From Flavobacterium silvaticum (GTDB lineage: Bacteria; Bacteroidota; Bacteroidia; Flavobacteriales; Flavobacteriaceae), in contig NZ_JAAMPU010000096.1 in the NCBI RefSeq assembly GCF_012911565.1, positions 1-64,000 of the forward strand: a DNA stretch of 64,000 bases, written 5' to 3'. Made by a program: the position numbers and the translations under genes. The notes under the pieces are model-generated. The model made no database searches, was not told the DNA's origin, and saw only the letters and a list, made by a program, of their open reading frames with translations. Below, in pieces: positions 1-14,315 of this stretch (its first letter is position 1; each line of letters starts with the position of its first letter).

Positions 1-80
1 TCATTCTGCATTTTGGCAAAAAAGTAATACCAGGAAATTATTGCCAATAATGGTCTTTGACTTTTGCGGCGATAGGCATG

Positions 81-216
81 GAACACAACGTTTGGCAGCC
101 AAGCGCGGTTGCGGACTTCCGAAGAAAGTTGGTTCGGCTGAACGTGAAAGTACAAAGAAAATCGATTGGTTCAATTACCGGAAAGCAGCAATCGCGTCTT
201 GGGTGCGGTTAGGTGC
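81..216 (-). other. attC-like recombination site A (trailing site of cassette 1)
   Basis: Read on the minus strand, the site opens with GCACCTAAC (216-208) and closes with GTTGTGTTCC (89-80). The inner arms pair imperfectly (CCCAAG.CGCG near the opening, GCGCTTGG near the close) around a long central segment. It is a near copy of site B at 938-1073. The opening box is the exact reverse complement of the leading edge of the lipoprotein cassette at 938-946. Confidence 0.6.
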
Positions 217-220
217 GGTT

Positions 221-910
221 TTAATTCGCCATCTTAAAAATTCCATAGTCCGAAAATTCAAGAACTGAAATTTTACCTTTTGGTTTTAGTAAATAGCTCT
301 TATGTGAGTAAATCCTATCTGACTTAGAAATTTGGATATCTTCAATTTGAATTTCAATTATTTCCATTTCTTTATTTTGTCTCAGAAAAAGATTTCCTTT
401 CTTTAATTTTAAACTTTCTAAATGTTGTGGATTGATAAATGGCTCATCTAGATTATAAAAGCATACACTATCTCGCGTTTCTACAAAACGTTCGAATTTA
501 TAAATTCCATTACTTATAGATTTATTTTGAAATCCGGCATTTTGATATTTTTTTACTTTTATATCAATACCTTCTTGAGAGATATTAAACTTTTCTATTG
601 GATCAAATATCTCTTTTTCTCGGGCTTCTTCGAAAGGTTCTAAACCAATTCCAAGAATAAATTTTCGATTTGGAATTTCTTCAAGATACATAACATCCAA
701 ATTTTTTGATAAATCAACTTCGAAAACATCTGAAGAATCCATAATGACAAAACCATGAATCATTGTATCTCTACCGCCAGTAGCAATATAATTATAAATT
801 ACTTTGGGTGAATCTTCTATTTTTTGACAGTATAATTGATAAGACCATTCAGTTTTGCAGCTTGCAAGTAGAGATGTCGAAAGGATGAAAGCTAAATATT
901 TAAATTTCAT
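221..910 (-). CDS. Putative lipoprotein of unknown function (cassette gene)
   Basis: This 229-residue protein has a short signal sequence ending in the lipobox LLASC (Cys at about residue 18), so it is probably exported and lipid-anchored. I recognise no domain; the rest is a mixed alpha/beta sequence rich in Lys, Glu and Ile. The gene is AT-rich compared with the core genes to the right. It lies alone between two ~135-bp attC-like sites, with its stop only a few bases before site A. One gene per cassette with the site at its 3' end is the standard integron cassette layout. No convincing -7 box is visible between site B and the start, so transcription may come from outside. Function unknown. 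Confidence 0.75.
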   Translation of the reverse strand: MKFKYLAFILSTSLLASCKTEWSYQLYCQKIEDSPKVIYNYIATGGRDTMIHGFVIMDSSDVFEVDLSKNLDVMYLEEIPNRKFILGIGLEPFEEAREKEIFDPIEKFNISQEGIDIKVKKYQNAGFQNKSISNGIYKFERFVETRDSVCFYNLDEPFINPQHLESLKLKKGNLFLRQNKEMEIIEIQIEDIQISKSDRIYSHKSYLLKPKGKISVLEFSDYGIFKMAN

Positions 911-937
911 ATTTCGGTTTTACAGTTGTTAAAAATC

Positions 938-1073
938 GCACCTAACGTTTGGCAGCCAAGTGCGGTTGCGGACTTCCGGAGAAAGTTGGCTCGGCTGAAC
1001 GTGAAAGTACAAAGAAAATCGGTTGGTTCAATTACCGATGAGCAGCAATCGCGTCTTGGGTGCGGTTGTGCGC
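938..1073 (-). other. attC-like recombination site B (trailing site of cassette 2)
   Basis: On the minus strand it opens with GCGCACAAC (1073-1065) and closes with GTTAGGTGC (946-938). The inner arms CCAAGACGCGATTGC and GCAACCGCACTTGG can pair with a few mismatches. The central segment holds a 6-bp hairpin (ATCGGT...ACCGAT at about 1018-1039). Predicted strand cut is between 946 and 945. The HNH gene stop is 8 bp from the opening edge. Confidence 0.6.
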
Positions 1074-1081
1074 TGTAAATA

Positions 1082-1873
1082 TTAGTTAAACGATAAATTA
1101 ATTTTATATTCTTTACCGTTGAGTGTAAATTCGATTGACGATTTATCCTTTTTTGTAATATTAGGGCTTCCTAAATCGAATTCCTTATGATGATTTGGAC
1201 AAAACAAAATAATGTTTTCAGGTAATTCTTGTCCTTGTTCATGTTTAGGAATAATGTGAGCCGCTTCTATATATTTTTCGCCATTACTTTTTGGAATAAA
1301 GGTTTGGCAAATTTGACATTTAAAATCTCGTACAATTTTAATTAAAGCAATAGTTTTATTATCTCGTTTATAGGCTTTATGGTTAATTGTTACTATTTCA
1401 GGTTCTCTCGCAGTAATACTATTTAGTTCAGCTAAAACTTCTTGTTTTGATTTTGTACGCTTTAAATATGAGATGATTTCATTTTGTTCAACTTCGTCAT
1501 GTAAACTTTCAATAGTGCTTTGGAATGTTGATACTCTTAATTTTTCAAAGTACATGTTACAAATTAATCTCAAACGCCTTTTAGGGTTTCCCTTTGCCCA
1601 TATATAAGTGATATGAAGATCTAATGCTGTTAAAGCCGCTTCGAGTTTCTCTTTTCCATATTCTAAAAATATATTTTCTAGAAAGTATTCAAATAGTGGA
1701 TTGCTTAAAGTTCTTGTAAATCGCTCGCCGTTCATCATTTTTACAAAAATATTGACAACAATAACTGCAGAATTTCGATTCATGTTTTGTTGATCGACTA
1801 ATGCTTGTATTCCTTCCTTTCTCGTAATCTGATTTTCGAAAACTTGTTTACAGATTTGATAAATAATTTCCAT
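1082..1873 (-). CDS. HNH endonuclease-domain protein (cassette gene)
   Basis: 263 residues. The C-terminal third carries an HNH nuclease module: CQIC (Cys186, Cys189), AAHI (His206), Asn220, and CPNHH (Cys225, Asn227, His228-229), with the two CxxC/CPNH elements placed to bind structural zinc. The N-terminal ~170 residues are helical with no domain I recognise. HNH modules of this kind occur in nicking or restriction-type nucleases, and as a cassette cargo a defence role is plausible but not shown. The gene is AT-rich and sits between the attI-like junction and site B. A near -7 box (GAACTTTG, one mismatch to TAnnTTTG) lies at 1881-1888 on the minus strand. Confidence 0.8.
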   Translation of the reverse strand: MEIIYQICKQVFENQITRKEGIQALVDQQNMNRNSAVIVVNIFVKMMNGERFTRTLSNPLFEYFLENIFLEYGKEKLEAALTALDLHITYIWAKGNPKRRLRLICNMYFEKLRVSTFQSTIESLHDEVEQNEIISYLKRTKSKQEVLAELNSITAREPEIVTINHKAYKRDNKTIALIKIVRDFKCQICQTFIPKSNGEKYIEAAHIIPKHEQGQELPENIILFCPNHHKEFDLGSPNITKKDKSSIEFTLNGKEYKINLSFN

Positions 1874-1903
1874 ATTTGATCAAAGTTCGAAGATTGGTTT
1901 ATA

Positions 1904-2000
1904 GCGAACAACTAATTTATCCCTTCCCAAATCCAACACATATCCTCCAACTAAAGTGCGATAAACGCATAAAAATAACAAATAAAACAATTATATCGAT
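1904..2000 (-). other. attI-like junction between integrase gene and first cassette
   Basis: On the minus strand, GTTGTTCGC (1912-1904) matches the GTTRRRY-type box and is an 8/9 reverse complement of the edge of site B. The ~90 bp between this box and the integrase stop (2001) would hold the native attachment site of the array. It contains no gene. Assignment rests only on position and box match. Confidence 0.4.
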
Positions 2001-3113
2001 TTATAGCATATCCAAAGGATTTTTAATATTGTGCATAGCTACATCGGTAACATGGGTATAAATCATGGTAGTTTTTGGGTTACTATGACCTAGAAGATTC
2101 TGTATGTAACGAATGTCGGTTCCTTGTTCCAGCAGATGAGTGGCAAAACTGTGTCTCAGTGTATGTAGTGTAATTTTTTTGCGGATATCTGCCCGTTCAG
2201 CAGATGTTTTAAGAACATTTTGTGCGGCTCTTTCAGAATATCTCTGCCCATTTTGTCCTTCAAAAAGAAATTGTTTTGGCTGATATATAGCTAAATATTC
2301 ATTCAACATAGCCAATGCTTTATGGGACAAGAGCGTATATCTGTCTTTTTTCCCTTTGGCATTGCGGATATGTATCAGCATACGATCGCCATCAAGGTCA
2401 GACATTTTCAAATTGAGTACTTCACTTATCCTGAATCCGCCGGAATATATGAGGCTCAAAAGCACCTTATGCTTGAGATTTGTAGCACATTTGAGCAAGC
2501 GACGTACTTCTTCAACACTCAAAACCACAGGTAATTTCTTTTCCCGTCGAGGCCGTTCAATATTATAGACCACCGTGTCATTCTTACGGAAACGCAAAAA
2601 TTGTTTGATTGCATTAATCGCCTGGTTTTGATAGGATATGGATTTTTCCGGAAGCACGATAAATTCATAATTGAATTGAGCCACGGTTCGTTCGGTAATC
2701 GTATCAAACTTGCGCTTAGCCAGATATTTCAGGAAGAATTCCGCAAGCCCTTTATAAGTATGAATAGTTGACGGACTATAGCGTTGCGCTTCCAGCCAAC
2801 GTACAAATTGCGAAAGTTCGGTCAGTTGATGCAATTCAAGCTGAATATCATAAAAATGGACACGGCGCTTTCGTTCTATTTTCTTGATTTTGGAATAATC
2901 AATCTCCGCCATAGTCGATAATTTGGCAAGAACGATTGGCAAATTTTCTGCGGAATACGGAATATACCAGCAGCGTTTGGTTTCACTCCAAGTGGCTCCG
3001 AATTCAAATCGGATAAATTCAAAAAGTCTGCGGTTTGTGGAAAAATGGAAACTCAATATTTCCTGTTCACGATGGTCTTGTAGGTCCAGGACCAATAAAG
3101 GTAGCGGTTGCAT
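2001..3113 (-). CDS. Tyrosine recombinase/integrase (integron-integrase-like)
   Basis: 370 residues. The C-terminal catalytic domain carries the full set R228, K253, H317-x-x-R320, H343 and nucleophile Y352, in the contexts GGFRISEV, HTLRHSFATHLL, LLGHSNPKTT and MIYTH. A core-binding SAM-like domain spans about residues 93-185. The first ~85 residues form an extra domain with an xWSxxKRCWYIPY motif. The last residues (NPLDML) resemble the SPLDAL end of IntI1, and the HTLRHSFAT...TTMIYTHV stretch is also very IntI-like. The ~20-residue IntI-specific insertion before the HxxR motif is absent. The gene's 3' end faces the cassette array. It probably recombines the flanking attC-like sites; a general XerC-like role is the alternative. 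Confidence 0.85.
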   Translation of the reverse strand: MQPLPLLVLDLQDHREQEILSFHFSTNRRLFEFIRFEFGATWSETKRCWYIPYSAENLPIVLAKLSTMAEIDYSKIKKIERKRRVHFYDIQLELHQLTELSQFVRWLEAQRYSPSTIHTYKGLAEFFLKYLAKRKFDTITERTVAQFNYEFIVLPEKSISYQNQAINAIKQFLRFRKNDTVVYNIERPRREKKLPVVLSVEEVRRLLKCATNLKHKVLLSLIYSGGFRISEVLNLKMSDLDGDRMLIHIRNAKGKKDRYTLLSHKALAMLNEYLAIYQPKQFLFEGQNGQRYSERAAQNVLKTSAERADIRKKITLHTLRHSFATHLLEQGTDIRYIQNLLGHSNPKTTMIYTHVTDVAMHNIKNPLDML

Positions 3114-3139
3114 ATTCGTAAATTTTGGCGTTTATGTAG

Positions 3140-3147
3140 CAAATATA
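3140..3147 (-). promoter_or_regulatory. -7 promoter box for the integrase gene
   Basis: TATATTTG on the minus strand matches the Bacteroidota -7 consensus TAnnTTTG, 26 bp before the integrase ATG. Confidence 0.5.
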
Positions 3148-3157
3148 ATTAATTTTT

Positions 3158-3300
3158 AGAAGCTGTTCCCGCTGCCTGCTTCAACTCCTCGTTTTATAAC
3201 CGTAGTTCGCACAAAAAATCAATGGCTTCCGGTGGTCGCCTTGATTTTATGGCTCACGATCGGTTGTAAAACTGCGGGGTTTTCACTGCATCGGGGCTAG
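3158..3300 (-). repeat. Dispersed structured element, copy 1
   Basis: On the minus strand it starts TAGCCCCGATG, has the core AAGGCGACCACCGGAAGCC, and ends GCAGCGGGAACAGCTTC. The same three blocks occur at 17031-17170 and 22051-22193 with variable sequence between them. Conserved blocks with variable spacers suggest a structured RNA. It may belong to a flavobacterial RNA family such as Flavo-1, but I could not check this. Here it lies between the divergent integrase and pyrD genes. Confidence 0.6.
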
Positions 3301-3363
3301 GCAATCGTTGATAAATAGACTGATTTCTATTTCAGAAGCTTTTTTTCGGTTGTCCCAAAAAAC

Positions 3364-3371
3364 TATCTTTG
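3364..3371 (+). promoter_or_regulatory. -7 promoter box for pyrD
   Basis: TATCTTTG fits TAnnTTTG and lies 24 bp before the ATG at 3396. It overlaps the upstream TTG at 3369, so translation cannot sensibly begin there. Confidence 0.5.
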
Positions 3372-3395
3372 CCAACCGAACCAATGCCATCCAGA

Positions 3396-4442
3396 ATGTA
3401 CAAACTCCTTTTACGCCCAATCCTGTTTCTTTTCGACCCGGAAGAAGTCCATTATTTTACATTTTCGGCCATACGATTCGCGTGCAAAATTCCTGGAATG
3501 TCTGGTCTTTTCAAATCGCTTTATGAAGTCCGCGATCCGTTGCTCGAAAAAGAAGTCTTCGGAATCAGGTTTAAAAATCCGGTGGGTCTGGCGGCGGGTT
3601 TCGATAAAGATGCCAAACTGTATAAGGAATTATCCTATTTTGGTTTCGGCTTTATTGAAATAGGCACCTTGACACCAAAAGCGCAACCTGGAAATCCCAG
3701 AAAACGTTTGTTTCGTTTGCGTGAAGATTCGGCGGTTATCAACCGGATGGGTTTCAATAACGGTGGTGCCGTAGAAGCAGCCAATCGGCTCAAAGAAAAC
3801 AAAACGGTATTGATTGGAGGAAACATCGGCAAAAACAAAGACACGGCCAATGAAGATGCCGGAACAGATTATGATATTTGTTTTGAAGCACTGTTCCCAT
3901 ACGCCGACTATTTTGTCGTTAACGTAAGTTCCCCGAACACGCCCAATCTTCGTGCATTACAGGAAAAAGAACCGCTCAAAGCTCTGTTGCTGGCGCTTCA
4001 GCAGAAGAATTTGTCAAAGCCATCGCCTAAACCAATCCTGCTTAAAATCGCCCCGGATCTTACCGATGAACAGTTGCTCGACATCATCGAAATTGTGAAT
4101 GAAACAAAGATTGCCGGTGTCATCGCAACCAATACGACTTTGTCACGTGATGGATTGGTATCTGAAAATAAAGTTGAAACAGGCGGATTATCCGGAAAAC
4201 CGTTGACGAATCGTTCAACAGAAGTCATACGGTTCCTGTCTGAGAAAAGCAACAAATCATTCCCGATAATCGGAGTAGGAGGAATCCATTCTGCCGACGA
4301 TGCCATCGAAAAAATCCGCGCTGGTGCCAGCCTTGTCCAGCTTTACACCGGGTTTATCTATGAAGGCCCGAAATTGGTGCGCGATATCAACAAACGCATC
4401 CTAAAAGAGCTCAAGCAGGGAACTTTGCACAACTGCGGTTAA
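3396..4442 (+). CDS. pyrD: Dihydroorotate dehydrogenase (quinone), class 2
   Basis: Oxidises dihydroorotate to orotate in pyrimidine synthesis, using FMN and passing electrons to the membrane quinone pool. From the ATG at 3396 the protein is 348 residues and begins [19 protein letters not shown], the usual N-terminal membrane-associating helix of class 2 enzymes. Visible motifs are [27 protein letters not shown] (with the catalytic serine of class 2), ATNTT, GGLSG and GVGGI. An in-frame TTG (3369) and ATG (3384) lie upstream, but the -7 box at 3364-3371 and family length favour 3396. It appears to be a single-gene unit. Confidence 0.95.
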
Positions 4443-4568
4443 GATAGTCATATATATAAATTATTACCATTTTATCTCATATCTTGTTTATTAGGTTTTT
4501 CGGTAATAATGTGAAACATTACGATTTTGAGTAATGATGATCGGTTTCAATCGATTTCGCAAAATCAC

Positions 4569-4576
4569 TATATTTG
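4569..4576 (+). promoter_or_regulatory. -7 promoter box before the HMG-CoA lyase gene
   Basis: TATATTTG fits TAnnTTTG but lies only 5 bp before the ATG at 4582. The transcript would therefore be nearly leaderless, or this match is fortuitous and the in-frame ATG at 4534 is used. Confidence 0.3.
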
Positions 4577-4581
4577 ACGCT

Positions 4582-5457
4582 ATGATTTCCGGAAACGCCC
4601 CAATCAAGATTATCGAATGCCCGCGCGATGCCATGCAAGGTATCAAAGATTTTATTCCGACCCAAAAGAAAATAACGTATCTGCAATCGTTGCTTAGGGT
4701 CAATTTCGATACGCTTGACTTTGGCAGTTTCGTATCGGCACGTGCCATTCCTCAAATGCAGGACACAGCCGAAGTGCTTGCAGGGCTTGACCTCAGTCGT
4801 TCCCAAACCAAACTGCTCGCCATAGTCGCCAATACCCAAGGGGCACAATTGGCAGCTGAGCACGAACCTATCCGCTATCTGGGTTACCCGTTTTCTATTT
4901 CGGAGAATTTCCAGATGCGCAACACCCATAAAACCATAGCCGAATCGATTGTCACGTTACAGGAAATCCTCAACATCGCATCGGCCAAAAACAAAGAAGT
5001 CGTCGCGTATTTGTCCATGGGTTTCGGAAATCCTTACGGCGATCCGTGGAATGTCGAAATAGTAGGCGAGTGGACCGAAAAATTATCGGGAATGGGTGTA
5101 AAGATACTGTCGCTGTCCGATACCGTAGGCAGTTCCACGCCCGATGTCATATCGTACCTTTTTTCAAACCTGATCCCAAAATATCCGAACATCGAATTCG
5201 GGGCACACTTGCATACGACTCCGGATAAGTGGCATGAAAAAGTAGATGCTGCCTTTCACGCAGGCTGCAGGCGGTTTGACGGTGCGATACAAGGTTTCGG
5301 GGGTTGTCCGATGGCTAAAGACGAACTCACCGGGAACATGCCGACCGAGAAATTACTGTCGTATTTCAGCCAGCACAAGCAAGATACCGGAACAGGTTGG
5401 ATGAGTTTTGAGAGCGCTTACAACGAAGCCTCTAAGTTGTTTGGTGCCTATCACTGA
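4582..5457 (+). CDS. Hydroxymethylglutaryl-CoA lyase family protein
   Basis: A TIM-barrel HMGL/DRE-type enzyme that by family splits HMG-CoA into acetoacetate and acetyl-CoA in leucine and ketone-body breakdown. From 4582 it is 291 residues. It shows KIIECPRDAMQG (the family usually has RDGLQ, the metal and catalytic site), SLSDTVG, HLHTTPDKW with metal-binding histidines, and GFGGCPMAKDELTGN (the cysteine-loop signature GxGGCP). The in-frame ATGs at 4534 and 4537 would add 16 or 15 residues that do not fit the family. It is convergent with the GH42 gene, whose stop is 1 bp away. Confidence 0.85.
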   Translation: MISGNAPIKIIECPRDAMQGIKDFIPTQKKITYLQSLLRVNFDTLDFGSFVSARAIPQMQDTAEVLAGLDLSRSQTKLLAIVANTQGAQLAAEHEPIRYLGYPFSISENFQMRNTHKTIAESIVTLQEILNIASAKNKEVVAYLSMGFGNPYGDPWNVEIVGEWTEKLSGMGVKILSLSDTVGSSTPDVISYLFSNLIPKYPNIEFGAHLHTTPDKWHEKVDAAFHAGCRRFDGAIQGFGGCPMAKDELTGNMPTEKLLSYFSQHKQDTGTGWMSFESAYNEASKLFGAYH

Positions 5458-5458
5458 A

Positions 5459-7552
5459 TCATTCCTCAACAATCAGGACGCCCCAGGGTTCGATGGCCAG
5501 TTTTTGGTTGGTATTGACTTTTTTACCCGATAGCAATTCGGTTCCTGAGCCTTTCGAATAGCTAAAAGAAGCGTCTTCCGATGAATAATTGTAGTAATAA
5601 TGGATGGTTTTGCCGAACTCATTTTTACCTGATTTGGTAATCAACGGCCAATGTAAATCTGTATCCGGAGCCAGTTTGAGTTTTTCGATTTCCTGCAGGA
5701 TAATCTTTTCCTGTATGGCATCGGAAACCATGCAGCCTTCATACACCAGGCTTCCTTTTCCGAATGTATTTTGTGTGACCGCCGGATATTTTCCAAAGTA
5801 TTTATGATCGTAAAAAGCAATCGGTTTTGCAGAGTCGGGAATCAGATATTCCGCCCAGGTATTGACTTTGTTGTTTTCATCCCCAACCCGGAACGGATCG
5901 TCTTTTAAGGAAAGTTCCTTGAAATTCGTAAACTCCTGATAGGTAAACCCACAGGCTTCACGTAACGGACCAGGCGCAAGTACAGGCCGGACCATTGAGT
6001 TTTCATCGCTGAAACCGCTTTTAAACTGCATAATCACATGGCCACCTTTTTTTACATAATCGCTGATTTTTTTAAGCAGGTCGTCGCTGGCAATATACAA
6101 TGACGGGATGATGACAAGGTCGTATTTTTCAAATTCGGGCCGTTCCGGAAATATAAAATCGACACCAATGTTGTTCTGATACAAAACCCTGTGGAATTGT
6201 GTGACCAGATTGTTCCTGTAAAAATTATTGTGGTCCGGCCCCCACGGATTTCCGCTTTGGTCGAATGGCATGAAATTCAACGCCGCATTCGCATCATGAC
6301 TGAACAAGATAGCGACTTTATTTTCTTTTTTAAGGTTGACCAGATGCTTCCCGATTTGTTTTAATTCCTGAGCAGTCCGGGTTACTTCCGAATAGGTCCG
6401 GTTCGGTTGCAGGTCATGTGACAGCACGCCTTTCCAATAGATTTCCTGTCCGTAATGAATGGAATGCCAGTGCCAGTATTCCACCATATTGGCGCCAGAA
6501 CCCAAGTGTGCGTATACGTTTTGCCTCAACTGGTTCGGATAGGGCGGTGACTGGATTCGGGAATTCCACCCGATGGTTTGGGCGTTGGTTTCGGTAATGA
6601 GGTAATTGTCATGCTTGACAGATCTGAAATAATCGCCGGCCAATGCAATCTCGCTTCCCGTAAGCTTATCCTGTGAATCGTGGTAAACATTGACCGCCAT
6701 GACATCCATGAGTTTCGAGCTTTCCATTTGGTCTACATCTTCGAATGCAGGCATAAAACATTGGGTCACGAACTGGTCAGGCCTTTTGTATTCGCGCACA
6801 ATCGCCGATTCCCAGGTTAGGAAATCCGCAAGAGCCTTTCTGTTGAAACGCTCCCATTCGAGTTTGTAGCCGGTATTTGTAATGCCGTCTCTCGGCGCGA
6901 GTTCTTCCCATCCGTTTATCGTCATTCCCCAATAATTGAGACCCCAGATTTTATTGAGGTTATCGGTCGTCTTGAATTTTTTCTTCAGATAATCCACAAA
7001 ACTGACCTGGAAATCGTGGTTGTTCACCCCTCTGGTCAGCGTCTCATTATCGACCTGGTAGCCAATGATAGCCGGGTGTTTTGCATAATGCTGCATCAGC
7101 TGGCGAATGATGCGTTCACTGTAAAAAAGGAAAGTCGGGTTTGTAATATCCATATTCTGGCGGATGCCGTAATACGTCCTGTCTCCTTTTTGCAGCTCGA
7201 TCAAAACTTCAGGATGTTTGTGCCAAAGCCATGCAGGAATGGAATAGGTAGGTGTTCCGAGGATAACCTTAATCCCGGCCGAATGCATTTTGTCTATGAT
7301 ACGATCCATCCACGCAAATTCAAACTGGCCTTCTACAGGTTCAAATAAGCTCCACGTCGATTCGCCTAACCTCACTACGGAAATACCTGCTTCTTTCATC
7401 ATTTTTACGTCTTCATCCAATCTGTCGGTGGGCATATATTCCTGATAGTAAGCCACCCCGTAGAGAATGTTGTCGAATTTTTTGACCTGGGCACTGACTG
7501 CCATTGAAATCAGGGACAGGCAAGAAATGAGAAAGCGTATGTTGGGATTCAT
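5459..7552 (-). CDS. Secreted GH42 beta-galactosidase
   Basis: From the ATG at 7552 this is 697 residues, beginning MNPNIRFLISCLSL and followed by a type I signal peptide with likely cleavage AVSA|Q. The export signal puts it in the periplasm or outside. Glycoside hydrolase family 42 features are GVAYYQEYMP near the N-terminus, YQVDNET (acid/base Glu of the NE pair), LITETNAQT (nucleophile Glu), and a middle glutamine-amidotransferase-like trimerisation domain (about residues 400-600). It removes terminal beta-galactosides. An in-frame ATG 57 bp upstream would put the signal peptide internally. No sugar-uptake genes are adjacent. Confidence 0.85.
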   Translation of the reverse strand: MNPNIRFLISCLSLISMAVSAQVKKFDNILYGVAYYQEYMPTDRLDEDVKMMKEAGISVVRLGESTWSLFEPVEGQFEFAWMDRIIDKMHSAGIKVILGTPTYSIPAWLWHKHPEVLIELQKGDRTYYGIRQNMDITNPTFLFYSERIIRQLMQHYAKHPAIIGYQVDNETLTRGVNNHDFQVSFVDYLKKKFKTTDNLNKIWGLNYWGMTINGWEELAPRDGITNTGYKLEWERFNRKALADFLTWESAIVREYKRPDQFVTQCFMPAFEDVDQMESSKLMDVMAVNVYHDSQDKLTGSEIALAGDYFRSVKHDNYLITETNAQTIGWNSRIQSPPYPNQLRQNVYAHLGSGANMVEYWHWHSIHYGQEIYWKGVLSHDLQPNRTYSEVTRTAQELKQIGKHLVNLKKENKVAILFSHDANAALNFMPFDQSGNPWGPDHNNFYRNNLVTQFHRVLYQNNIGVDFIFPERPEFEKYDLVIIPSLYIASDDLLKKISDYVKKGGHVIMQFKSGFSDENSMVRPVLAPGPLREACGFTYQEFTNFKELSLKDDPFRVGDENNKVNTWAEYLIPDSAKPIAFYDHKYFGKYPAVTQNTFGKGSLVYEGCMVSDAIQEKIILQEIEKLKLAPDTDLHWPLITKSGKNEFGKTIHYYYNYSSEDASFSYSKGSGTELLSGKKVNTNQKLAIEPWGVLIVEE

Positions 7553-7664
7553 CGGATAAAGAATAACCATATTTAAAGTGTAATTTAAACATTTAATTTC
7601 CAATAACAAATGGAACCGAAAAATTCCCGAAAGATTTTATAAATTCCCGCGAATAAATCGCAAT

Positions 7665-8144
7665 ATGTCGCATCAATTACTCTTTCAACTGCAATCTGGA
7701 AATCCCGAAGACGAAGAATTCAACCTGTTCCTTTTCGCCATTCTCATGACAGGCGTCATTATGGTTTGCCTGTGTTTTATTGTTGCCCTGATCCTGATTG
7801 CGCTGGCAATTGTGGTGATTCTGGGGTTGATAGGCATCGGCGCGTTATCGGCCTCTGTCATTGTCGGGCTGAGTCAAAAGTCGTTGACCAAAGGATTCAA
7901 GACGTTTGTAATTGTGTTTTCGACGTTGACAAGCGGAGTCATAGCTGCATTCGGATTTTGGGGAATTAATAGTATCACGCATTGGTGGTCGACAAAAATG
8001 GCACTATTGACCGGTTTGGGGATAGGCCTTGTAGGTGGTTTTGCCATTGGATTCATCATCGCATACCTGATCCGGAAACTGAGCAATTTCATCAAACTGA
8101 AACTCGAAAAGAGAAAGCGACTCAGGGAAAAAACAGTGGAGTAA
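7665..8144 (+). CDS. Small membrane protein of unknown function
   Basis: 159 residues, about four hydrophobic helices (roughly 24-55, 60-75, 83-103 and 112-140) and a very basic C-terminal tail (KLKLEKRKRLREK) that should stay in the cytoplasm by the positive-inside rule. No family recognised. It stands alone between divergent GH42 and convergent dehydrogenase genes. Confidence 0.7.
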   Translation: MSHQLLFQLQSGNPEDEEFNLFLFAILMTGVIMVCLCFIVALILIALAIVVILGLIGIGALSASVIVGLSQKSLTKGFKTFVIVFSTLTSGVIAAFGFWGINSITHWWSTKMALLTGLGIGLVGGFAIGFIIAYLIRKLSNFIKLKLEKRKRLREKTVE

Positions 8145-8146
8145 TA

Positions 8147-9109
8147 TTATTTCAGGACTTCAGGATTGGCGATGTTCGTCGGAGTTCCGTCTATAAAATT
8201 TATCACATTTTCAAAGGCTTTCCCAAAATACAACTCGTAGCCGTTTTTCTCGACATAACCCAAATGGGGCGTGCAGATGACATTCTCGAGTTGCAGTAAA
8301 TCATAGTTTTTATCGTAGATGGGTTCGTCTTCATAGACATCGATTCCGGCCAGGAGCTTTCCCTTTTTCAGTACATTCAGCAAGGCACCGGATTCAATCA
8401 GTTCAGCGCGGGCGGTATTGATGAAGGCCGAATTGGCTTTCATACGTTCCAGGTCTTCCTGCTTTACAATTCCCCTGGTGGTTTCGGTCAGGCGCAGGTG
8501 CAGCGTCACGATATCTGAATTCTCAAAAAAATATTCTTTTGACGCCGCTTTTGCAAAACCATCGGCAACTGCTTTTTCGCATGACATTTCGCTTCCCCAA
8601 ACCAACACATTGGCACCGAAAGCCTTTGCATATTGTGCGATTTTCTGGCCTATTTTTCCGTATCCCCAAATGCCGATCGTCTTTCCGTGGATCGTCGATC
8701 CGATGTTCACCTGCCATTTGCCGTCTTTCATTCCCTGGATTGCCTGCGGTATTTTGCGCACGACGTTCATCATCAAAGCCCAGGTGAGTTCTGCCGGCGC
8801 GATTGGCGATCCGATTCCTTCAGCTACCGCAACGTTGTATTTGGTACAGATCGAGAGATCGAGATGATTCGATATTTTACCGGTCTGGCTGATGAGTTTG
8901 AGGTTCGGCAGCAGTTGCAACAAACCTTCGGAAATCTCAGTCCTTTCGCGTGTAAGCACGAGGATTTCGCAATCGTCTATTTTTGATGCCAATGTCCGCG
9001 GATCTTTCTCAGTTTTATGAAGAATCCGGAAGTCCTGACCTTTCAATATGCTGAAACAATCCAGTTTTTCAATGACGTTCTGGTAATCATCTAAAATGGC
9101 AATCTTCAT
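8147..9109 (-). CDS. D-2-hydroxyacid dehydrogenase family protein
   Basis: 320 residues of the NAD-dependent D-isomer-specific 2-hydroxyacid dehydrogenase family, which interconverts 2-oxoacids and D-2-hydroxyacids. The Rossmann motif GIWGYGKIGQKIA (GxGxxG, residues ~146-158) is followed by a catalytic triad in expected order: Arg in INTARAELI, Glu in YEDEP, and His in TPHLGY. The substrate cannot be read from sequence. Its ATG follows the TPR lipoprotein stop by 1 bp, so the two are translationally coupled at the end of a minus-strand operon. Confidence 0.85.
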   Translation of the reverse strand: MKIAILDDYQNVIEKLDCFSILKGQDFRILHKTEKDPRTLASKIDDCEILVLTRERTEISEGLLQLLPNLKLISQTGKISNHLDLSICTKYNVAVAEGIGSPIAPAELTWALMMNVVRKIPQAIQGMKDGKWQVNIGSTIHGKTIGIWGYGKIGQKIAQYAKAFGANVLVWGSEMSCEKAVADGFAKAASKEYFFENSDIVTLHLRLTETTRGIVKQEDLERMKANSAFINTARAELIESGALLNVLKKGKLLAGIDVYEDEPIYDKNYDLLQLENVICTPHLGYVEKNGYELYFGKAFENVINFIDGTPTNIANPEVLK

Positions 9110-9110
9110 A

Positions 9111-10823
9111 TCAGTTCAGGATTCTTGATGATTTTATAGAAATATCGGCATACTTCCAGGCTTCGTTGAATTTGGTTTCGGTTTGCAGATACATTTTTTT
9201 ATCCTGCTTTTTTTCATAGGCATTCATCAATCCTTTTAACGCCCAGCCGTTTTTGCGGAAGGTCTTTAAATCGGCTTCATACACTTTTATCGCGTCGTCG
9301 TACTTTCGGGCATCGATTAAAACAGCGCCCAGATTATGACGGACAGAGAAGAACCAATCAGGCGGCTCGTCGTAATTCAACGCATCTTCCTCTGCGACGG
9401 CTTCGGTAAGTAACGTGATTGCTTTGGTATAATTCTTTTCGCTTGCGCAGATTTCCCCTTCGAGGGTTTTTGCCGCTATTTCACATAAGTCATATAAGTT
9501 GTTGATGCCCCAAATGGTCAGGTCTTTTAGTTTGGGATCGGTCATTATAGTTCTGATTTCTGACAAGTGTTTTTTGGCGATATCAGTTTTGTTTTCTGAT
9601 AATGAAGCCATTCCCTGGGCATAATTCCAAATGACCGACGGGTATTTCAAATCTTTTTCAGGTTGTTTTGAATTTCGGATTTCATTCCACTTCCCAAGTT
9701 TGACCTCAACATACCACGGAATCGAATAATAATGCTGTAAAGTGGCCCATGCCGGATCACGCAACAGTTTTTTATGGGCGTGTCTTGCAGTGGCATTCGC
9801 CGATTCGAGAGCCATCTTGCTTTCTCCGTCAAGCGTGGCACAGGCCGAAATAAAATGATGGTTATGTGGATAGTAAGCCAACGGATAGGCACCTTGTGCA
9901 TGGCACGCATCGAGATAAGTATCGTCTGCATCAACCGCCTTCCGGTTTGTGACGACGCCATCGTGATATCGGCCGGTCCTGATATAGATATGTGATGGCA
10001 TATGCAACAAATGCCCCGAACCCGGAACCAAATGTTCGAGTAATTTCGCACTTGCATCGGCGGCTTCCGGATGATGCGACATTTCCTGTGCATGGATGAA
10101 AAAGTGATTGGCACCAGCGTGATTTGGTTCTGCAGAAAGACATTTTTCAAGCACTTGTATTATTTCGTGCGTCCACGGTTGAGGTTGTCCGTCTTTTTTC
10201 CACAGATCCCAAGGATGTATATCCATGATCGATTCGGCGAACAAAGAACCAATAGTGGCATCGTCCGGATATTTCTTATAGACCTTCCGCATCGCATCGG
10301 CATAAGTGGAATCAAGCGATTTGCGGGTAAGCGTCGTGTCGTTTGAATATCGATGTGACAAAGCTTCGATGAGGTCTTTCTCTTTTGGTGTACAATGGAC
10401 AGAATGTTTCTTCGCCTTGTTGACTGCTTCAAACGCACGTTCAAAATTGTCTTTTTCCATTCCACCGTTGTAATTCGGGCCGAGCACATAGGCAAATCCC
10501 CAGTAACCCATGGCGCAAAGTGAATCCTGGCGTGTAGCTTCAAAGAAAGAACGGGCAGCTTCGGCATGGTTGAACCCGAACGAAAGCATCAATCCCTGGT
10601 CAATGTATTTCTGGACTTCCGGATTTTTTGTCGAAACCGGAAAATGAATGCCATCGAGACCTTTGAAAAATGGTGCTTTTTTATCGGAAGCATACCAATT
10701 GGCATCTGAAACTTCGGGCGTCCCGCAACTGTATGAAGAAGAAACGATGGTTTGTGACACTTTTTCCTTTTTGTCGCACGAAAGGGAAAGTAGCGTAAAA
10801 CACAGAATATAAAGTTTTTGCAT
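9111..10823 (-). CDS. TPR-repeat lipoprotein
   Basis: 570 residues with a short signal sequence ending at LLSLSC, giving a likely lipid-anchored Cys at about residue 16. The body is alpha-helical; clear tetratricopeptide-type helices include AARSFFEATRQDSLCAMGYW near the N-terminus and HNLGAVLIDARKYDDAIKVY near the C-terminus. A His-rich stretch (AYYPHNHHFISA) lies mid-protein. TPR arrays bind other proteins; the partner is unknown. It lies 28 bp after the serine hydrolase gene and 1 bp before the dehydrogenase gene. Confidence 0.8.
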   Translation of the reverse strand: MQKLYILCFTLLSLSCDKKEKVSQTIVSSSYSCGTPEVSDANWYASDKKAPFFKGLDGIHFPVSTKNPEVQKYIDQGLMLSFGFNHAEAARSFFEATRQDSLCAMGYWGFAYVLGPNYNGGMEKDNFERAFEAVNKAKKHSVHCTPKEKDLIEALSHRYSNDTTLTRKSLDSTYADAMRKVYKKYPDDATIGSLFAESIMDIHPWDLWKKDGQPQPWTHEIIQVLEKCLSAEPNHAGANHFFIHAQEMSHHPEAADASAKLLEHLVPGSGHLLHMPSHIYIRTGRYHDGVVTNRKAVDADDTYLDACHAQGAYPLAYYPHNHHFISACATLDGESKMALESANATARHAHKKLLRDPAWATLQHYYSIPWYVEVKLGKWNEIRNSKQPEKDLKYPSVIWNYAQGMASLSENKTDIAKKHLSEIRTIMTDPKLKDLTIWGINNLYDLCEIAAKTLEGEICASEKNYTKAITLLTEAVAEEDALNYDEPPDWFFSVRHNLGAVLIDARKYDDAIKVYEADLKTFRKNGWALKGLMNAYEKKQDKKMYLQTETKFNEAWKYADISIKSSRILN

Positions 10824-10851
10824 ATCTAAAATTACAAAAACTGCCCAAAGA

Positions 10852-12168
10852 TTATTCTTTGGTAAACAAAAATTCGCCTCCGCCTTGTTTTAAGGTCAGC
10901 GTCTTTTTTGTAGTATCGAATTCGATAAGTATTCCGGCGGCATCAAACCTGAATTTATCCTTTTCAAATGCTTCCAATGGAAATGCCGATTGACCCGTAG
11001 CCTGGGCCGTAAGCTTGCTTCCTTCTTTGGCAATGGTAATTTTCATTGGCATCTGTGTAGTAGAATACACACCTGTATAGGTATCGAGCTGTTCCGGTGT
11101 GAGTGCTACAGACTTAAAATCCGGAATTGAAAAAGGTTGGCTATAAACGGCATTCAGCGCCACGATCAGTATGTCGTTCATATTGAAATTATTTCCGTTC
11201 GAAAGCAGCACCACAGAAACATCCTGTTCATCGATGTGGCAAAATACAGATGAAAACCCGTCAATGGAACCGGTATGCCCAAATCCTTTTTTATCACCAA
11301 AAGGCAACGAGAATAAAGCCATTCCATAATCGTCTTTGATATCTTTCATCATATCAAGGCTTTTGGCAGAAATGATTTTGCCTTTGAATAAAGCCTCTAT
11401 GAAGACAGATAAATCAGTCGGAGTCGAAACTATCGCTCCGGCACCAAGAGGCACGGATGGATCTGTCTCTATTTCCTGTTTCCAGCTTTTATCGAATCCA
11501 TACGATTTGCAGTCGCCAGCTGCCACATTGATTTTTTTCCCGGAATATGTATGCTTTAGTCCCAGCGGTTGTGTGATGTCTTTGGAAAGCAATTCGGCAT
11601 ACGGTTTCCCATATATTTTTTCCAGGATAATGCTCAGCAGGATGTAATTCGAATTGCTGTAATCGGCGGTGGTGCCGGGTTCAAACACACTTTCTTTTTT
11701 GGCGATTTGTGCAATCAGCTGTTGTTCTGTTTGAGGATGTATGGCCCACGACATGAATTCCGGATCGTCGGTGATATTGTAGATTCCACTGCGGTGATGC
11801 AATAATTGATAAATAGTGATTTTACCGGAATTCGGAACTTCAGGAAAATAACCTCCGATATTTTGGTCGAGACTGAGTAATTTGCTTTCGACTGCTTTGA
11901 GGATAAGGGCCGCCGTAAAGGTTTTGGAAATGGAACCAATGTGGTATTTTGATTTTTCGGTCGCGCGGATATTGTTTTCGACATCGGCAAACCCAATGGA
12001 TTTGGTGTAGATGACTGAACCGCCTTTGGAAATCGCGACGCTTCCCATAAATTTATTGTGCTGTTCAAGCGCATCGAAATAGGAATCGAGTCTGGTTTTG
12101 TCGATGGTTTGGGCAGATGCATTAAGAATGAAAAGACAGGTCGATAGAATAAGTAGTGTTTTTTTCAT
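10852..12168 (-). CDS. Secreted serine hydrolase of the beta-lactamase (class C/PBP4-like) family
   Basis: 438 residues with a type I signal peptide (cleavage near NASA|Q). Active-site motifs in order are SxxK in IGSISKTFTA, the YxN motif in DYSNSNY, and HTG in GHTGS. A C-terminal beta-rich domain (about residues 350-438, YTGVYSTTQ...) resembles the DUF3471-type tail seen on such hydrolases. Family members are esterases, D-amino-acid peptidases or beta-lactamases; the substrate is not predictable. Its start overlaps the archaemetzincin gene by 47 bp, which suggests translational coupling. Confidence 0.85.
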   Translation of the reverse strand: MKKTLLILSTCLFILNASAQTIDKTRLDSYFDALEQHNKFMGSVAISKGGSVIYTKSIGFADVENNIRATEKSKYHIGSISKTFTAALILKAVESKLLSLDQNIGGYFPEVPNSGKITIYQLLHHRSGIYNITDDPEFMSWAIHPQTEQQLIAQIAKKESVFEPGTTADYSNSNYILLSIILEKIYGKPYAELLSKDITQPLGLKHTYSGKKINVAAGDCKSYGFDKSWKQEIETDPSVPLGAGAIVSTPTDLSVFIEALFKGKIISAKSLDMMKDIKDDYGMALFSLPFGDKKGFGHTGSIDGFSSVFCHIDEQDVSVVLLSNGNNFNMNDILIVALNAVYSQPFSIPDFKSVALTPEQLDTYTGVYSTTQMPMKITIAKEGSKLTAQATGQSAFPLEAFEKDKFRFDAAGILIEFDTTKKTLTLKQGGGEFLFTKE

Positions 12169-12787
12169 TGTATTTCTGATTACCGTTTGGGTTTTGTCGT
12201 GTGTTTTCAGTCTTATTGAATTTCCATCCGTGATTTTTCAAAAAAGCGGTGCAATCTTCACAGAATCCTTTTTCTTCGTCTATTACGTTCGCACCTTCGG
12301 CATCACGCATCAGACAGGTTTTTTCGGGACAATGTGACAAGCCTTCGGTATGGCCGAGTTCATGAAGGACGACTTTGTGAAACTGCTCTTTTTTGTTGTA
12401 AGAGGCCAACCGGTAATCAGAAATTACACATGCTTTTCCAGGCCGATAGCCCAAACCCATAATGCCCCAATCCTGGAATTTACCTTTTGTCGTGCTGATA
12501 TCTTTATGTGTCAGGCCTACAACCACCGAATCTTCCCCAATCCTGGCGTTGAGGTATTTTATGATGCTGTCCGCCCTGTAACGACCTCTGACCTGGTTAT
12601 ATGATTTCGGCGGAAAATCCATGTTCTTCCTGAGAATGACGTTTGGATTTATGGCTTTTACCTGAACCAGTACCTCTTTGGCCATAGACGCATCAAAATT
12701 TCCTAAAGGCTGGATCACGATATGTTTTGTCCTTGGTCCTGAACAGGAAACGATTGCAAAAAGCAAAATCAGTAATAGTCTTTTCAT
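12122..12787 (-). CDS. Archaemetzincin-family zinc metalloprotease lipoprotein
   Basis: 221 residues from the ATG at 12787 (an ATG 9 bp upstream is possible). The signal sequence ends in the lipobox IVSC. The signature HELGHTEGLSHC followed by PEKTCLM and, 15 residues on, CEDC matches the archaemetzincin pattern HExxHxxGxxHCx4CxM...CxxC. That pattern binds one catalytic and one structural zinc. Family members are peptidases found mostly in archaea and vertebrates and patchily in bacteria. A membrane-anchored form suggests envelope protein processing. The C-terminal ~16 codons overlap the next gene. The MBL hydrolase gene ends 13 bp upstream. Confidence 0.88.
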   Translation of the reverse strand: MKRLLLILLFAIVSCSGPRTKHIVIQPLGNFDASMAKEVLVQVKAINPNVILRKNMDFPPKSYNQVRGRYRADSIIKYLNARIGEDSVVVGLTHKDISTTKGKFQDWGIMGLGYRPGKACVISDYRLASYNKKEQFHKVVLHELGHTEGLSHCPEKTCLMRDAEGANVIDEEKGFCEDCTAFLKNHGWKFNKTENTRQNPNGNQKYNEKNTTYSIDLSFHS

Positions 12788-12800
12788 TGATGCCAATTAA

Positions 12801-13904
12801 TTAATCAATCGTTTCCCACCATTTGGAGAATTGCTGTCCGCCCTCGAGGTAAACCAATTCCCCAATCATCGGTGTCCATAATGGAATTCCAGATGCTATT
12901 GCATTTTCGGTAATCTTGCGTATCGGCTCGTCCCAATCGTGCAGGGCGAGGTTGAATTTTGCCCAATGGACGGGAAGCACCGCTTTGGCCTGCAAGTCTT
13001 TTGCGGCGTTCATTTCATCTTCTGGCAATAAATGAATGTACTTCCAGGCCGGATTGTATTGTCCGCATTCTATAATTGCCAGATCGAAAGGGCCGTGAAC
13101 CGCACCGATGTTTTTGAAATGGGAATCATATCCACTGTCGCCACCGATGAAGATTTTTTTCGATGGTGTCTTGAGCACGAAAGAAGACCATAAGGTACCG
13201 TTTCGTTTAAAAGTGCGACCCGAAAAATGACGTGCAGGCGTACAATCGAGACGGATGTTGTCACGAAGCAGGATATGCTCGTTCCAGTTGAGTTCATTGA
13301 TGCGCTGCGGATCGTAACCCCAGGCTTCCAGGTGCGCACCCACACCGAGACTCGTCACGACAGCCGAAACCTTCGGGATTAGTTTTCTGACTGTTTTATA
13401 ATCGAGGTGATCCCAGTGATCGTGCGTAATGATGAGAATGTCTATGTCAGGGAAATCATAGGTGGAATATACATCGGAACCCTTAAAACTTCTTGTCGTC
13501 GGCGGAATAGGAGAGGCCGAACCACTGAACACGGGATCGACAAGTATCTTGAGGCCATCGATTTGGATAAAGTAAGACGAATGCCCGAACCAGACCAGGA
13601 CATTTTCATCCGGAGCCAGTGATTTGAGATCGGTTTTACGGGAGGGAATGGGTTGTTTTGGTTTACGACGAGCACCCCGGCCAAAGAAGAAATTGTAAAG
13701 AACCGTAGACATTTTTGCATCTTCAGCGAGGTTCGGTGTAAAGGAAATATTCTGGAATTCACCTTTATCGAAATTCGTGGCAGCAAGAATACGATCGAGA
13801 CGTTTGCCTTTTGGTTTCTTCCCGAATTCGGGGCGTTGCATAAAGGCGTAAGTGAGAAGAATCAGTAAAAGTATGGTGGAGATTAAAATCAGGAGAAAGG
13901 ACAT
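12801..13904 (-). CDS. MBL-fold metallo-hydrolase (NAPE-PLD/UlaG-like)
   Basis: 367 residues. An N-terminal transmembrane helix (about 3-22, LLILISTILLLILLTYAF) anchors a metallo-beta-lactamase-fold domain. Metal ligands are visible in ITHDHWDHLDY, RHFSGR, GGDSGYD and PVHWAKF. This arrangement fits the branch that includes N-acyl-phosphatidylethanolamine phospholipase D and UlaG-like lactonases. A lipid-related substrate is possible but not shown. It is the first gene of the minus-strand operon through 8147, with a -7 box at 13919-13926. Confidence 0.85.
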   Translation of the reverse strand: MSFLLILISTILLLILLTYAFMQRPEFGKKPKGKRLDRILAATNFDKGEFQNISFTPNLAEDAKMSTVLYNFFFGRGARRKPKQPIPSRKTDLKSLAPDENVLVWFGHSSYFIQIDGLKILVDPVFSGSASPIPPTTRSFKGSDVYSTYDFPDIDILIITHDHWDHLDYKTVRKLIPKVSAVVTSLGVGAHLEAWGYDPQRINELNWNEHILLRDNIRLDCTPARHFSGRTFKRNGTLWSSFVLKTPSKKIFIGGDSGYDSHFKNIGAVHGPFDLAIIECGQYNPAWKYIHLLPEDEMNAAKDLQAKAVLPVHWAKFNLALHDWDEPIRKITENAIASGIPLWTPMIGELVYLEGGQQFSKWWETID

Positions 13905-13918
13905 GGTTGCTGTTTTTC

Positions 13919-13926
13919 CAAAGTTA
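13919..13926 (-). promoter_or_regulatory. -7 promoter box for the MBL-archaemetzincin operon
   Basis: TAACTTTG on the minus strand, 14 bp before the ATG of the MBL hydrolase gene. Confidence 0.45.
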
Positions 13927-13993
13927 ATGGTTAACTGATAACGGCCGAAAGAAATAAAATTGTTTCAGAAGTAATTGTATGTAATCATCCAAA

Positions 13994-14290
13994 TCAACTT
14001 CCGGATAATTCGGGGTCGGGATTTTTATTTTTTCCTTTCATGGCAAATGCAAAGCTGATAAACCAGCCAAGTATTGTCCAACCGACTAAGAGGTTCATCA
14101 CCAAGACCAGTTTGAAATTTATTTTATCGCGGGCAATGACGGTTGGAATAAAGTAAACGAATGCGGCAAAAATTCCCGCCATTATCTTTTCAGGCGTAAT
14201 CTCTTTGTTTTCAAACGGAATATCGCTTTGTTGTGACCAAAGTGAATAAATGCTTAAAAGCGCTAAGGTTACTGCATATGTTGATTTCAT
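13994..14290 (-). CDS. Superinfection-immunity-like small membrane protein
   Basis: 98 residues with a signal-like N-terminal helix and two further hydrophobic segments (about 36-53 and 61-85). The segment MNLLVGWTILGWFISFAFA matches the NLxxGWTxxGWxxAxxWA pattern of the superinfection immunity protein family (T4 Imm-like). In that family the name comes from a phage protein that blocks DNA injection, but chromosomal members are mostly uncharacterised. It lies alone, 26 bp after the GH30 gene's stop side. Confidence 0.65.
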   Translation of the reverse strand: MKSTYAVTLALLSIYSLWSQQSDIPFENKEITPEKIMAGIFAAFVYFIPTVIARDKINFKLVLVMNLLVGWTILGWFISFAFAMKGKNKNPDPELSGS

Positions 14291-14315
14291 CGTTCAGGAT
14301 GTTGAGATACGAAAA

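Follow-up and report, generated by a model that had tools for sequence, protein, structure and literature searches.

The first 64,000 nucleotides (nt) of contig NZ_JAAMPU010000096.1 of Flavobacterium silvaticum (assembly GCF_012911565.1), herein referred to as the window, begin with small genes separated by copies of a repeated site and followed by a gene for a tyrosine recombinase. Very probably, this part of the window is the end at which the integrase adjoins a long array of integron-like cassettes, in which the recombinase would insert circular cassettes and the site would be read as a folded single strand. The evidence consists of the array itself, the matching edges of its cassettes, covariation within the sites, turnover at a fixed junction, a cassette unit marked by two duplications, and co-occurrence of the recombinase with the sites. 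Read along the minus strand, the order is the recombinase gene, an attI-like site, and repeated units in which a gene lying between GTT and AAC is followed by a hairpin site. The system works like an integron, yet it is not classed here as an IntI integron because its recombinase was tested for a defining feature of that class, the IntI-specific insert, and lacks it. The features of the locus, in window coordinates, are listed below.

1-89, minus strand: right end of a third cassette, which runs off the contig; its own site is expected off the window, to the left.
87-210, minus strand: attC-like site 1 (AAC 87-89, core 90-207, GTT 208-210), the 3' site of the cassette-1 gene.
208-946, minus strand: body of cassette 1, with complementary 15-nt edges; gene at 221-910, 229 amino acids (aa).
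944-1067, minus strand: attC-like site 2 (AAC 944-946, core 947-1064, GTT 1065-1067), the 3' site of the HNH cassette.
1065-1912, minus strand: first cassette of the array; HNH endonuclease gene at 1082-1873, 263 aa (HNH_2, 1.4e-08).
1913-2000, minus strand: attI-like region, 88 nt from the recombinase stop codon to the first cassette; its equivalent is conserved in close relatives.
2001-3113, minus strand: tyrosine recombinase, 370 aa, transcribed towards the array.

The source genome comprises 3.77 Mb in 107 contigs, and the window is positions 1-64000 of contig C95. The two similar repeats flanking genes from which the original prediction started are a 142-nt pair (78-219 and 935-1076), 89% identical, and belong to a family of about 60 copies in this genome. 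A genome-wide DNA search with the repeat, in which 40 of 50 first-look candidates were scored, gave at least 40 matches, including 34 at E<0.05 and 6 that were chance-like (E>0.1). When the eight contigs with earlier matches were scanned with a profile built from the copies, 60 sites scored above 30 bits, 54 of them at full length. The contig starts at window position 1, yet the further copies that the prediction implied are present on seven other contigs; in all, sites were found on C90, C87, C76, C82, C81 and C77, at the end of C102 and at the start of C95. All sites on any one contig share one direction. The contig end falls inside a site in six of the eight contigs, and the array has therefore probably been split up by the assembly. 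Of the eight, C95 (138 kb) and C102 (232 kb) are the only ones with long non-array stretches, and we infer a single array of about 50 kb lying between them. The third cassette, which had been described as running off the window, ends in GCATGGAACACAAC, and this ending is common to two related cassettes on C82 and C87 that are 89% identical to each other and contain no open reading frame (ORF) of 60 aa. The G+C content is 31-34% in the two array kilobases of the window, 40% in the recombinase kilobase and 43-47% at positions 3001-12000. Searches of plasmid and phage collections with the site gave no match at E<=1e-5.

In total, 52 cassettes of 187-3405 bp lie between consecutive sites in the source genome. 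The integron-like complementarity of cassette edges that had been noticed in the window extends over 15 nt in this whole set: 36 cassettes match at 14 of 15 positions, 9 at 13, 2 at 12, 2 at 11 and 3 at 10, while the match count of non-partner edge pairs peaks at 7. The HNH cassette, which starts with GTT at 1912-1910 on the minus strand, matches its opposite edge at 13 of 15 positions. Among 68 cassettes of relatives, the match is 14/15 in 35, 13/15 in 23, 12/15 in 5 and lower in 5; this set was derived from 107 of 121 matches after exclusion of 14 duplicates from overlapping loci, and one of its cassettes enters an N stretch. In a third set, which includes pairs possibly spanning an undetected site, at least 12 of 15 positions match in 75 of 105 pairs as against 1.1% of non-partner pairs. 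The corresponding values for cassettes from IMG/VR are 22 of 32 and 2.5%. Edge position 11 is a fixed G.T on the plus strand in all four sets (46/52 in the source genome, 63/68 in relatives, 84/105 in the third set and 30/32 in IMG/VR).

The consensus of the cassette edge is GTTR followed by free positions. GTT and AAC are invariant and position 4 is a purine in 52 of 52 source-genome cassettes; at position 5, 20 of them have T and 11 have C, and positions 5-7 are not confined to RRY. The proposed edge boxes RYYYAAC and GTTRRRY thus hold for GTT/AAC and the purine at position 4, and fail beyond it. An array of the same site type was also observed at locus L221 (G399:C1:5186000-5205900), where 8 of 8 cassettes match at 12 or more of 15 positions and no family recombinase was present among the matches listed. 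This array resembles the integrase-less CALIN clusters.

The longest ORF lies on the minus strand in 43 of the 52 cassettes and on the plus strand in 5; the remaining 4 have no ORF of 60 aa. Because most genes read on the minus strand, each gene is followed by a site on its left in window coordinates. The cassette unit is a gene with its 3' site, which reverses the polarity assumed in the original prediction: core 90-207 pairs with gene 221-910, and core 947-1064 with the HNH gene. Two duplications mark this unit. At locus L099 (G011:C43), in another genome of the same genus, a duplicated cassette is identical over 511 nt, begins exactly at AAC and includes the left site; on the right side identity continues into the next site, so that the left boundary alone is sharp. 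In the only duplicated cassette pair found in the source genome, the left cores are 95% identical over 118 nt and the right cores are only partly alike (88 of 117 nt, at 83%). Sites of about 172 nt and about 139 nt were seen mixed in the L099 array.

Cassette cargo was surveyed in 54 proteins, namely at most two ORFs of at least 75 aa per cassette plus the HNH protein, with one long ORF spanning a locus boundary excluded. The families found include a PtuA (Septu) protein that shares its cassette with a methyltransferase, as well as a Drt9 reverse transcriptase, ParDE, a PIN-domain protein with DUF6364, an OGG-like glycosylase and a Schlafen/AlbA_2 protein. Since some cassettes carry anti-phage or toxin-antitoxin genes, these findings suggest that the array may serve to store defence genes. 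The ParDE cassette (L033:3496-4030, on C87) has relatives of about 35-49% identity in the array loci L043, L053, L100 and L112 of other genomes. For the 229-aa protein of gene 221-910, no Pfam or NCBIfam match was found at E<=0.1; a 46%-identical homologue is encoded between the last site and the recombinase at L102, in another genome of the same genus.

The site cores of the source genome are 113-121 nt long and contain an inner stem of 16 consensus pairs, 14 of which have changed on both sides. Of the inner-stem cells, 94.4% pair, as against 69.8% in shuffles and 35-46% when slid, and the covariation score is 0.66 versus 0.20 in shuffles. With DNA folding parameters, the plus strand folds better in 54 of 54 sites by minimum free energy and in 53 of 54 by ensemble energy, and it is the better-folding strand of site 1 (87-210). 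The structural case for the sites comes from covariation and not from the folding of single sites. The inner stems also differ between strands: on the plus strand they contain 88 G.T pairs, 3 A.C pairs and 67 other mismatches.

The attC-like hairpin that had been predicted with extrahelical bases was recovered as a covarying hairpin, and the bases themselves were recovered in part. An extrahelical base is present in 37 of the 54 own cores, 28 on the R''-L'' arm where an attC site would have it and 9 on the other arm, and is lacking in 17. Among 97 cores of relatives, 7 carry one on the R''-L'' arm, 21 on the other arm and 69 none. Neither extrahelical bases nor the GTTRRRY consensus are general in these sites. 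In the inner stems of the same 97 cores, A.C mismatches on the plus strand are common (78 cells), which is opposite to the wobble trend of the source genome.

The junction between recombinase and array was analyzed with the site nearest to the recombinase in each of 34 loci (46 rows, two of them for L131). In 28 loci the start of the first cassette is complementary to the edge of the first site. The DNA before the first cassette tends to TATAWAYNA immediately before GTT (27 of 28 loci counted). A TAnnTTTG box, which we take to be the Bacteroidota promoter box, lies within 60 nt after the recombinase stop codon in 14 of the 28 attI regions, compared with a shuffle mean of 1.2; the reverse strand gave 2.

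The upstream flank, the recombinase and attI are conserved within two sets of close relatives, one of five genomes whose recombinases are closely similar (G340, G155, G367, G174 and G359) and one of two (G142 and G345). Within these sets the last 90 nt of attI are 84-94% identical, and the first 90 nt from GTT onward are 60-66% identical, with a shuffled background of 60%. As divergence starts at GTT while the recombinase and attI stay conserved, cassettes turn over at a fixed point, the attI/GTT junction, between close relatives. The alternative of fixed, conserved sites in all relatives, against which turnover had been set, is not what these genomes contain; exchange occurs at the predicted boundary. 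Similarity returns past the array. Three stretches there are collinear between G174 and G340 (11938-15140 and 11196-14776 in script coordinates), and the shared pieces are taken to be the far flank.

The recombinase consists of a XerA-like core and an N-terminal domain of about 90 residues. It passes the score of the XerA-type family NF040815 (228.9 bits, cut-off 220) and stays below that of the integron integrase family TIGR02249 (200 bits, cut-off 265). The catalytic residues R228, K256, H317, R320, H343 and Y352 are present, and each is kept in 51 of 51 family members except H343, which is kept in 50; two of the 53 family loci, one truncated and one with a stop, were excluded from the alignment. 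Among solved structures, XerA (5hxy) is the best match by sequence (153 bits) and IntI4 the third (126 bits). The match to IntI4 is in two pieces, and the gap between them sits where IntI carries its extra domain. The segment aligned to residues 277-292 has 16-21 residues in the 51 family members and 22-24 in three paralogues from the source genome, versus 58 in 20 of 20 IntI proteins from the phylum sample. A structure predicted with an alignment (predicted local distance difference test, pLDDT, 90.3; predicted template modelling score, pTM, 0.71; pLDDT 35 from the single sequence) has no helix of four or more residues between 278 and 293. In fold comparison, XerA 5hxy_F gave Z 24.1 with a root-mean-square deviation of 14.6 over 259 aligned residues, and IntI4 2a3v_A gave Z 22.4 with 3.3 over 263; the N-terminal domain was barely covered. 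The recombinase is not IntI, as it lacks the IntI-specific insert. The prediction of an integron array is therefore upheld for the cassette array and not for an IntI integron.

The N-terminal domain (residues 1-90, window 2844-3113) has a W..T..WY.P pattern in most aligned Bacteroidota members and a weak match to DUF5710 below the cut-off. A scan with the single protein matched one locus in a Flavobacterium metagenome-assembled genome, whose recombinase is 60% identical. The source genome also encodes a second recombinase paralogue (L094, G000:C105:181542-182207), which has no site within about 1.5 kb on either side. In phylogenetic trees IntI forms one clade (support 100/99). The array family as labelled, a label given by similarity and not by site presence per member, needs two changes, and long branches meet. 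The trees are compatible with the family as a sister to IntI or as including the IntI root.

Recombinase and sites were found together beyond the source genome. Among 60 relatives, sites were found in 30 (first model, E<=0.001) and the recombinase in 24 (E<=1e-40). Among 395 genomes of the phylum, with at most 5 recombinase and 8 site candidates scored per genome, the family recombinase was found in 114 (E<=1e-45) and sites in 174 (second model, E<=1e-4). Both were present in 98 genomes, the recombinase only in 16, sites only in 76 and neither in 205. The odds ratio of 16.5 is descriptive only, because the genomes are related. A site was found in the fetched stretch, mostly 1.5 kb on either side of the gene, at 34 of 53 family recombinase loci and at 0 of 3 loci of the own paralogues. 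At 31 of the 34 loci the closest site lies 3' of the recombinase and on the opposite strand. Among the 142 sites listed (source-genome rows excluded, 23 chosen IntI positions used), 55 have a family recombinase within 40 kb, and 52 of these sites occupy its 3' side and the opposite strand.

In IMG/VR, sites were found at 19 of 43 loci whose recombinase has a short insert, versus 0 of 17 with an IntI-sized insert; this count excludes three loci with sites and no insert length. Of the 22 site-bearing IMG/VR loci, 19 have the array 5' of the recombinase, here a protein of mostly about 265-290 aa. This arrangement is the divergent order of classical integrons. The arrays at L236, L263, L264 and L268 have this layout too and stand beside recombinases of 266-289 aa, too short for the N-terminal domain of about 90 residues. 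The ORFs of L236, the only IMG/VR contig compared with PHROG, gave no match in 9 of 10 cases and one DNA methyltransferase.

In the proposed mechanism, circular cassettes are most likely inserted by the recombinase at the attI/GTT junction and would be excised by recombination of two cassette sites. The adjacent recombinase is the presumed enzyme of these reactions. Most likely, the site is read as a folded single strand, and structure together with strand asymmetry points to single-stranded DNA as the substrate. Circularisation of a cassette would let its outer 15-nt arms pair, including a single fixed G.T; the inner stem of about 17 bp pairs as well, so that the whole fold would mimic a double-stranded site of recombination. 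Recombination would use the plus strand of the window, which is the bottom strand relative to most genes; it is proposed because the wobbles in the source genome's own inner stems are G.T there (88) rather than A.C (3). Wobble asymmetry would thereby decide the strand, instead of extrahelical bases.

Several observations weigh against this mechanism. According to published work, single-stranded cassette recombination requires the I2 helix (PMC7790495), and that helix is absent from the window recombinase. The case for recombination and for its single-stranded route draws on sequence and structure, and no circular cassette was seen. Single window sites barely beat shuffles in folding (z -1.5 and -1.2 for the plus strands, -0.9 and -0.8 for the minus strands). 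The asymmetry of the inner stems is weaker in relatives (G.T 146, A.C 78, other mismatches 53), and by strand 45 of the relatives' cores favour plus, 49 are ties and 3 favour the other strand. Complementarity is below 12/15 in 30 of 105 consecutive pairs of the third set and in 10 of 32 from IMG/VR, perhaps because an intervening site was missed. In the phylum sample, 76 genomes have sites without the recombinase at E<=1e-45, and 63 of these also lack IntI. The orientation rule is broken by 3 of the 55 nearby listed sites and at 3 of the 34 loci, and the window's own attI has no exact TAnnTTTG box. In G155 (L313), the pieces past the array are ordered differently from those in G340 (L312) and G174 (L315). 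A rearrangement at the array's far end may account for this difference.

The enzyme could also act by a conventional double-stranded Xer-like reaction at the repeated sites, with the hairpin being secondary. This is unlikely, even though the recombinase is Xer-like and lacks the I2 region, to which single-strand recombination is tied in published work (PMC7790495). Conservation of AAC-GTT and of parts of the core would suit such a reaction too. However, the stem arms vary between site types yet still pair, so recognition of structure rather than of sequence is expected; the wobble-type pairs of the source genome are almost all G.T on one strand; and both edges of a cassette are adjacent only in the circular form, where pairing is possible. 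In the pdif modules of Acinetobacter plasmids, Xer-type enzymes move gene modules between short double-stranded XerC/D sites in alternating orientation. The present system is alike in having Xer-type enzymes and gene modules between sites; it differs in its hairpin-forming cores of about 118 nt, in the single direction per contig and in the adjacent recombinase and attI. An assignment to pdif modules does not agree with cores of 113-121 nt in one direction within each of eight contigs. Alternatively, the array could be a group of canonical attC sites that has no integrase of its own and is moved by an ordinary IntI encoded elsewhere, with the adjacent recombinase as a bystander. The cassette logic is indeed identical to that of IntI integrons, IntI passes the cut-off in 105 of the 395 phylum genomes, and 63 sampled genomes with sites lack both IntI and the recombinase under the cut-offs applied. 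This explanation is nevertheless very unlikely. The source genome was searched for canonical IntI and has none over the cut-off, and the 108 phylum genomes with IntI at E<=1e-50 include one of the window's class (G095) and none of its order. IntI and sites are negatively associated (both 37, IntI only 71, sites only 137, neither 150; odds ratio 0.57), and IntI is not enriched with sites. This site type was found at 0 of 20 IntI loci, as at the 17 IMG/VR loci with an IntI-sized insert, which means only that this type is missing there, because the site model was built from this family. Finally, the family recombinase adjoins an array with a junction in 28 loci.

Covarying stems between genes would also be expected of structured RNA elements, such as terminators, under selection on RNA. 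However, the longest ORF of most cassettes (43 of 52) is on the minus strand, so that a transcript would have A.C mismatches opposite the G.T of the plus strand. An RNA copy would carry mismatches and not wobbles, so folding of DNA is favoured. An Rfam scan of the window matched no family, and selection on RNA leaves edge complementarity and exchange at attI unexplained; this explanation is highly improbable. A reading of each cassette as a small transposon bounded by terminal inverted repeats of 15 nt has a practically negligible probability. Every cassette does have inverted 15-nt ends, but the ends vary between cassettes, the 25 of 35 Pfam families listed for the 54 cassette proteins include no transposase, copies share one direction per contig, and the exchange point is fixed at the attI/GTT junction.

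In the favoured interpretation, the system shares with IntI integrons an integrase gene, an attI junction, a promoter-like box in 14 of 28 attI regions and tandem small cassettes in which most genes are followed by their own palindromic site, with exchange at GTT and complementary cassette ends. Classical cassettes mostly have 9-11 consecutive complementary nt at their ends (PMC2727003); here the ends comprise 10 nt plus a wobble plus 4. Control attC arrays from ten IntI regions yielded two cassettes only, with edges matching at 9 and 11 of 15 positions, too few for comparison. Unlike IntI integrons, the present system has no IntI-specific insert, no universal extrahelical bases, GTTR only and not GTTRRRY, an asymmetric spacer of about 5 nt instead of 1 (from the alignment), a fixed G.T in the outer arm, and a site type not found at the IntI loci examined. 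The integrases of Treponema integrons are described as intI, whereas the window recombinase is under the IntI cut-off. Compared with XerA, XerC, XerD and XerH, the recombinase is closest to XerA among solved relatives both by sequence and by fold Z, and differs in its extra N-terminal domain of about 90 residues and in the linked cassette array.

In the literature, the extra domain is described as the mark of IntI and as the element that allows single strands to recombine (PMC9024848, PMC8138268, PMC9668308, PMC7790495), and surveys identify integrons by IntI with its extra domain together with attC sites (PMC9024848, PMC9668308). In a review, Bacteroidota are named among the integron-bearing phyla (PMC8618304), but in the IntegronFinder 2.0 paper one complete Bacteroidetes integron, from Salinibacter ruber, is given beside those in Chlorobi and Ignavibacteriae (PMC9024848). 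No earlier description of the present system was found in a search of open papers, which cover few subscription journals and preprints.

The arrays in many Bacteroidota and on IMG/VR contigs probably represent a second integron class, with a Xer-type recombinase without the I2 helix, capture of folded single-stranded hairpins and strand choice by wobble. Such a class would be a sister of IntI integrons, a form resembling their ancestor, or a separate invention. If this is true, surveys based on IntI would overlook a cassette-capture system present in many Bacteroidota, given sites in 174 of 395 genomes. It would also provide natural material for asking whether single-strand cassette recombination depends on the I2 helix or whether that helix is one way among others.

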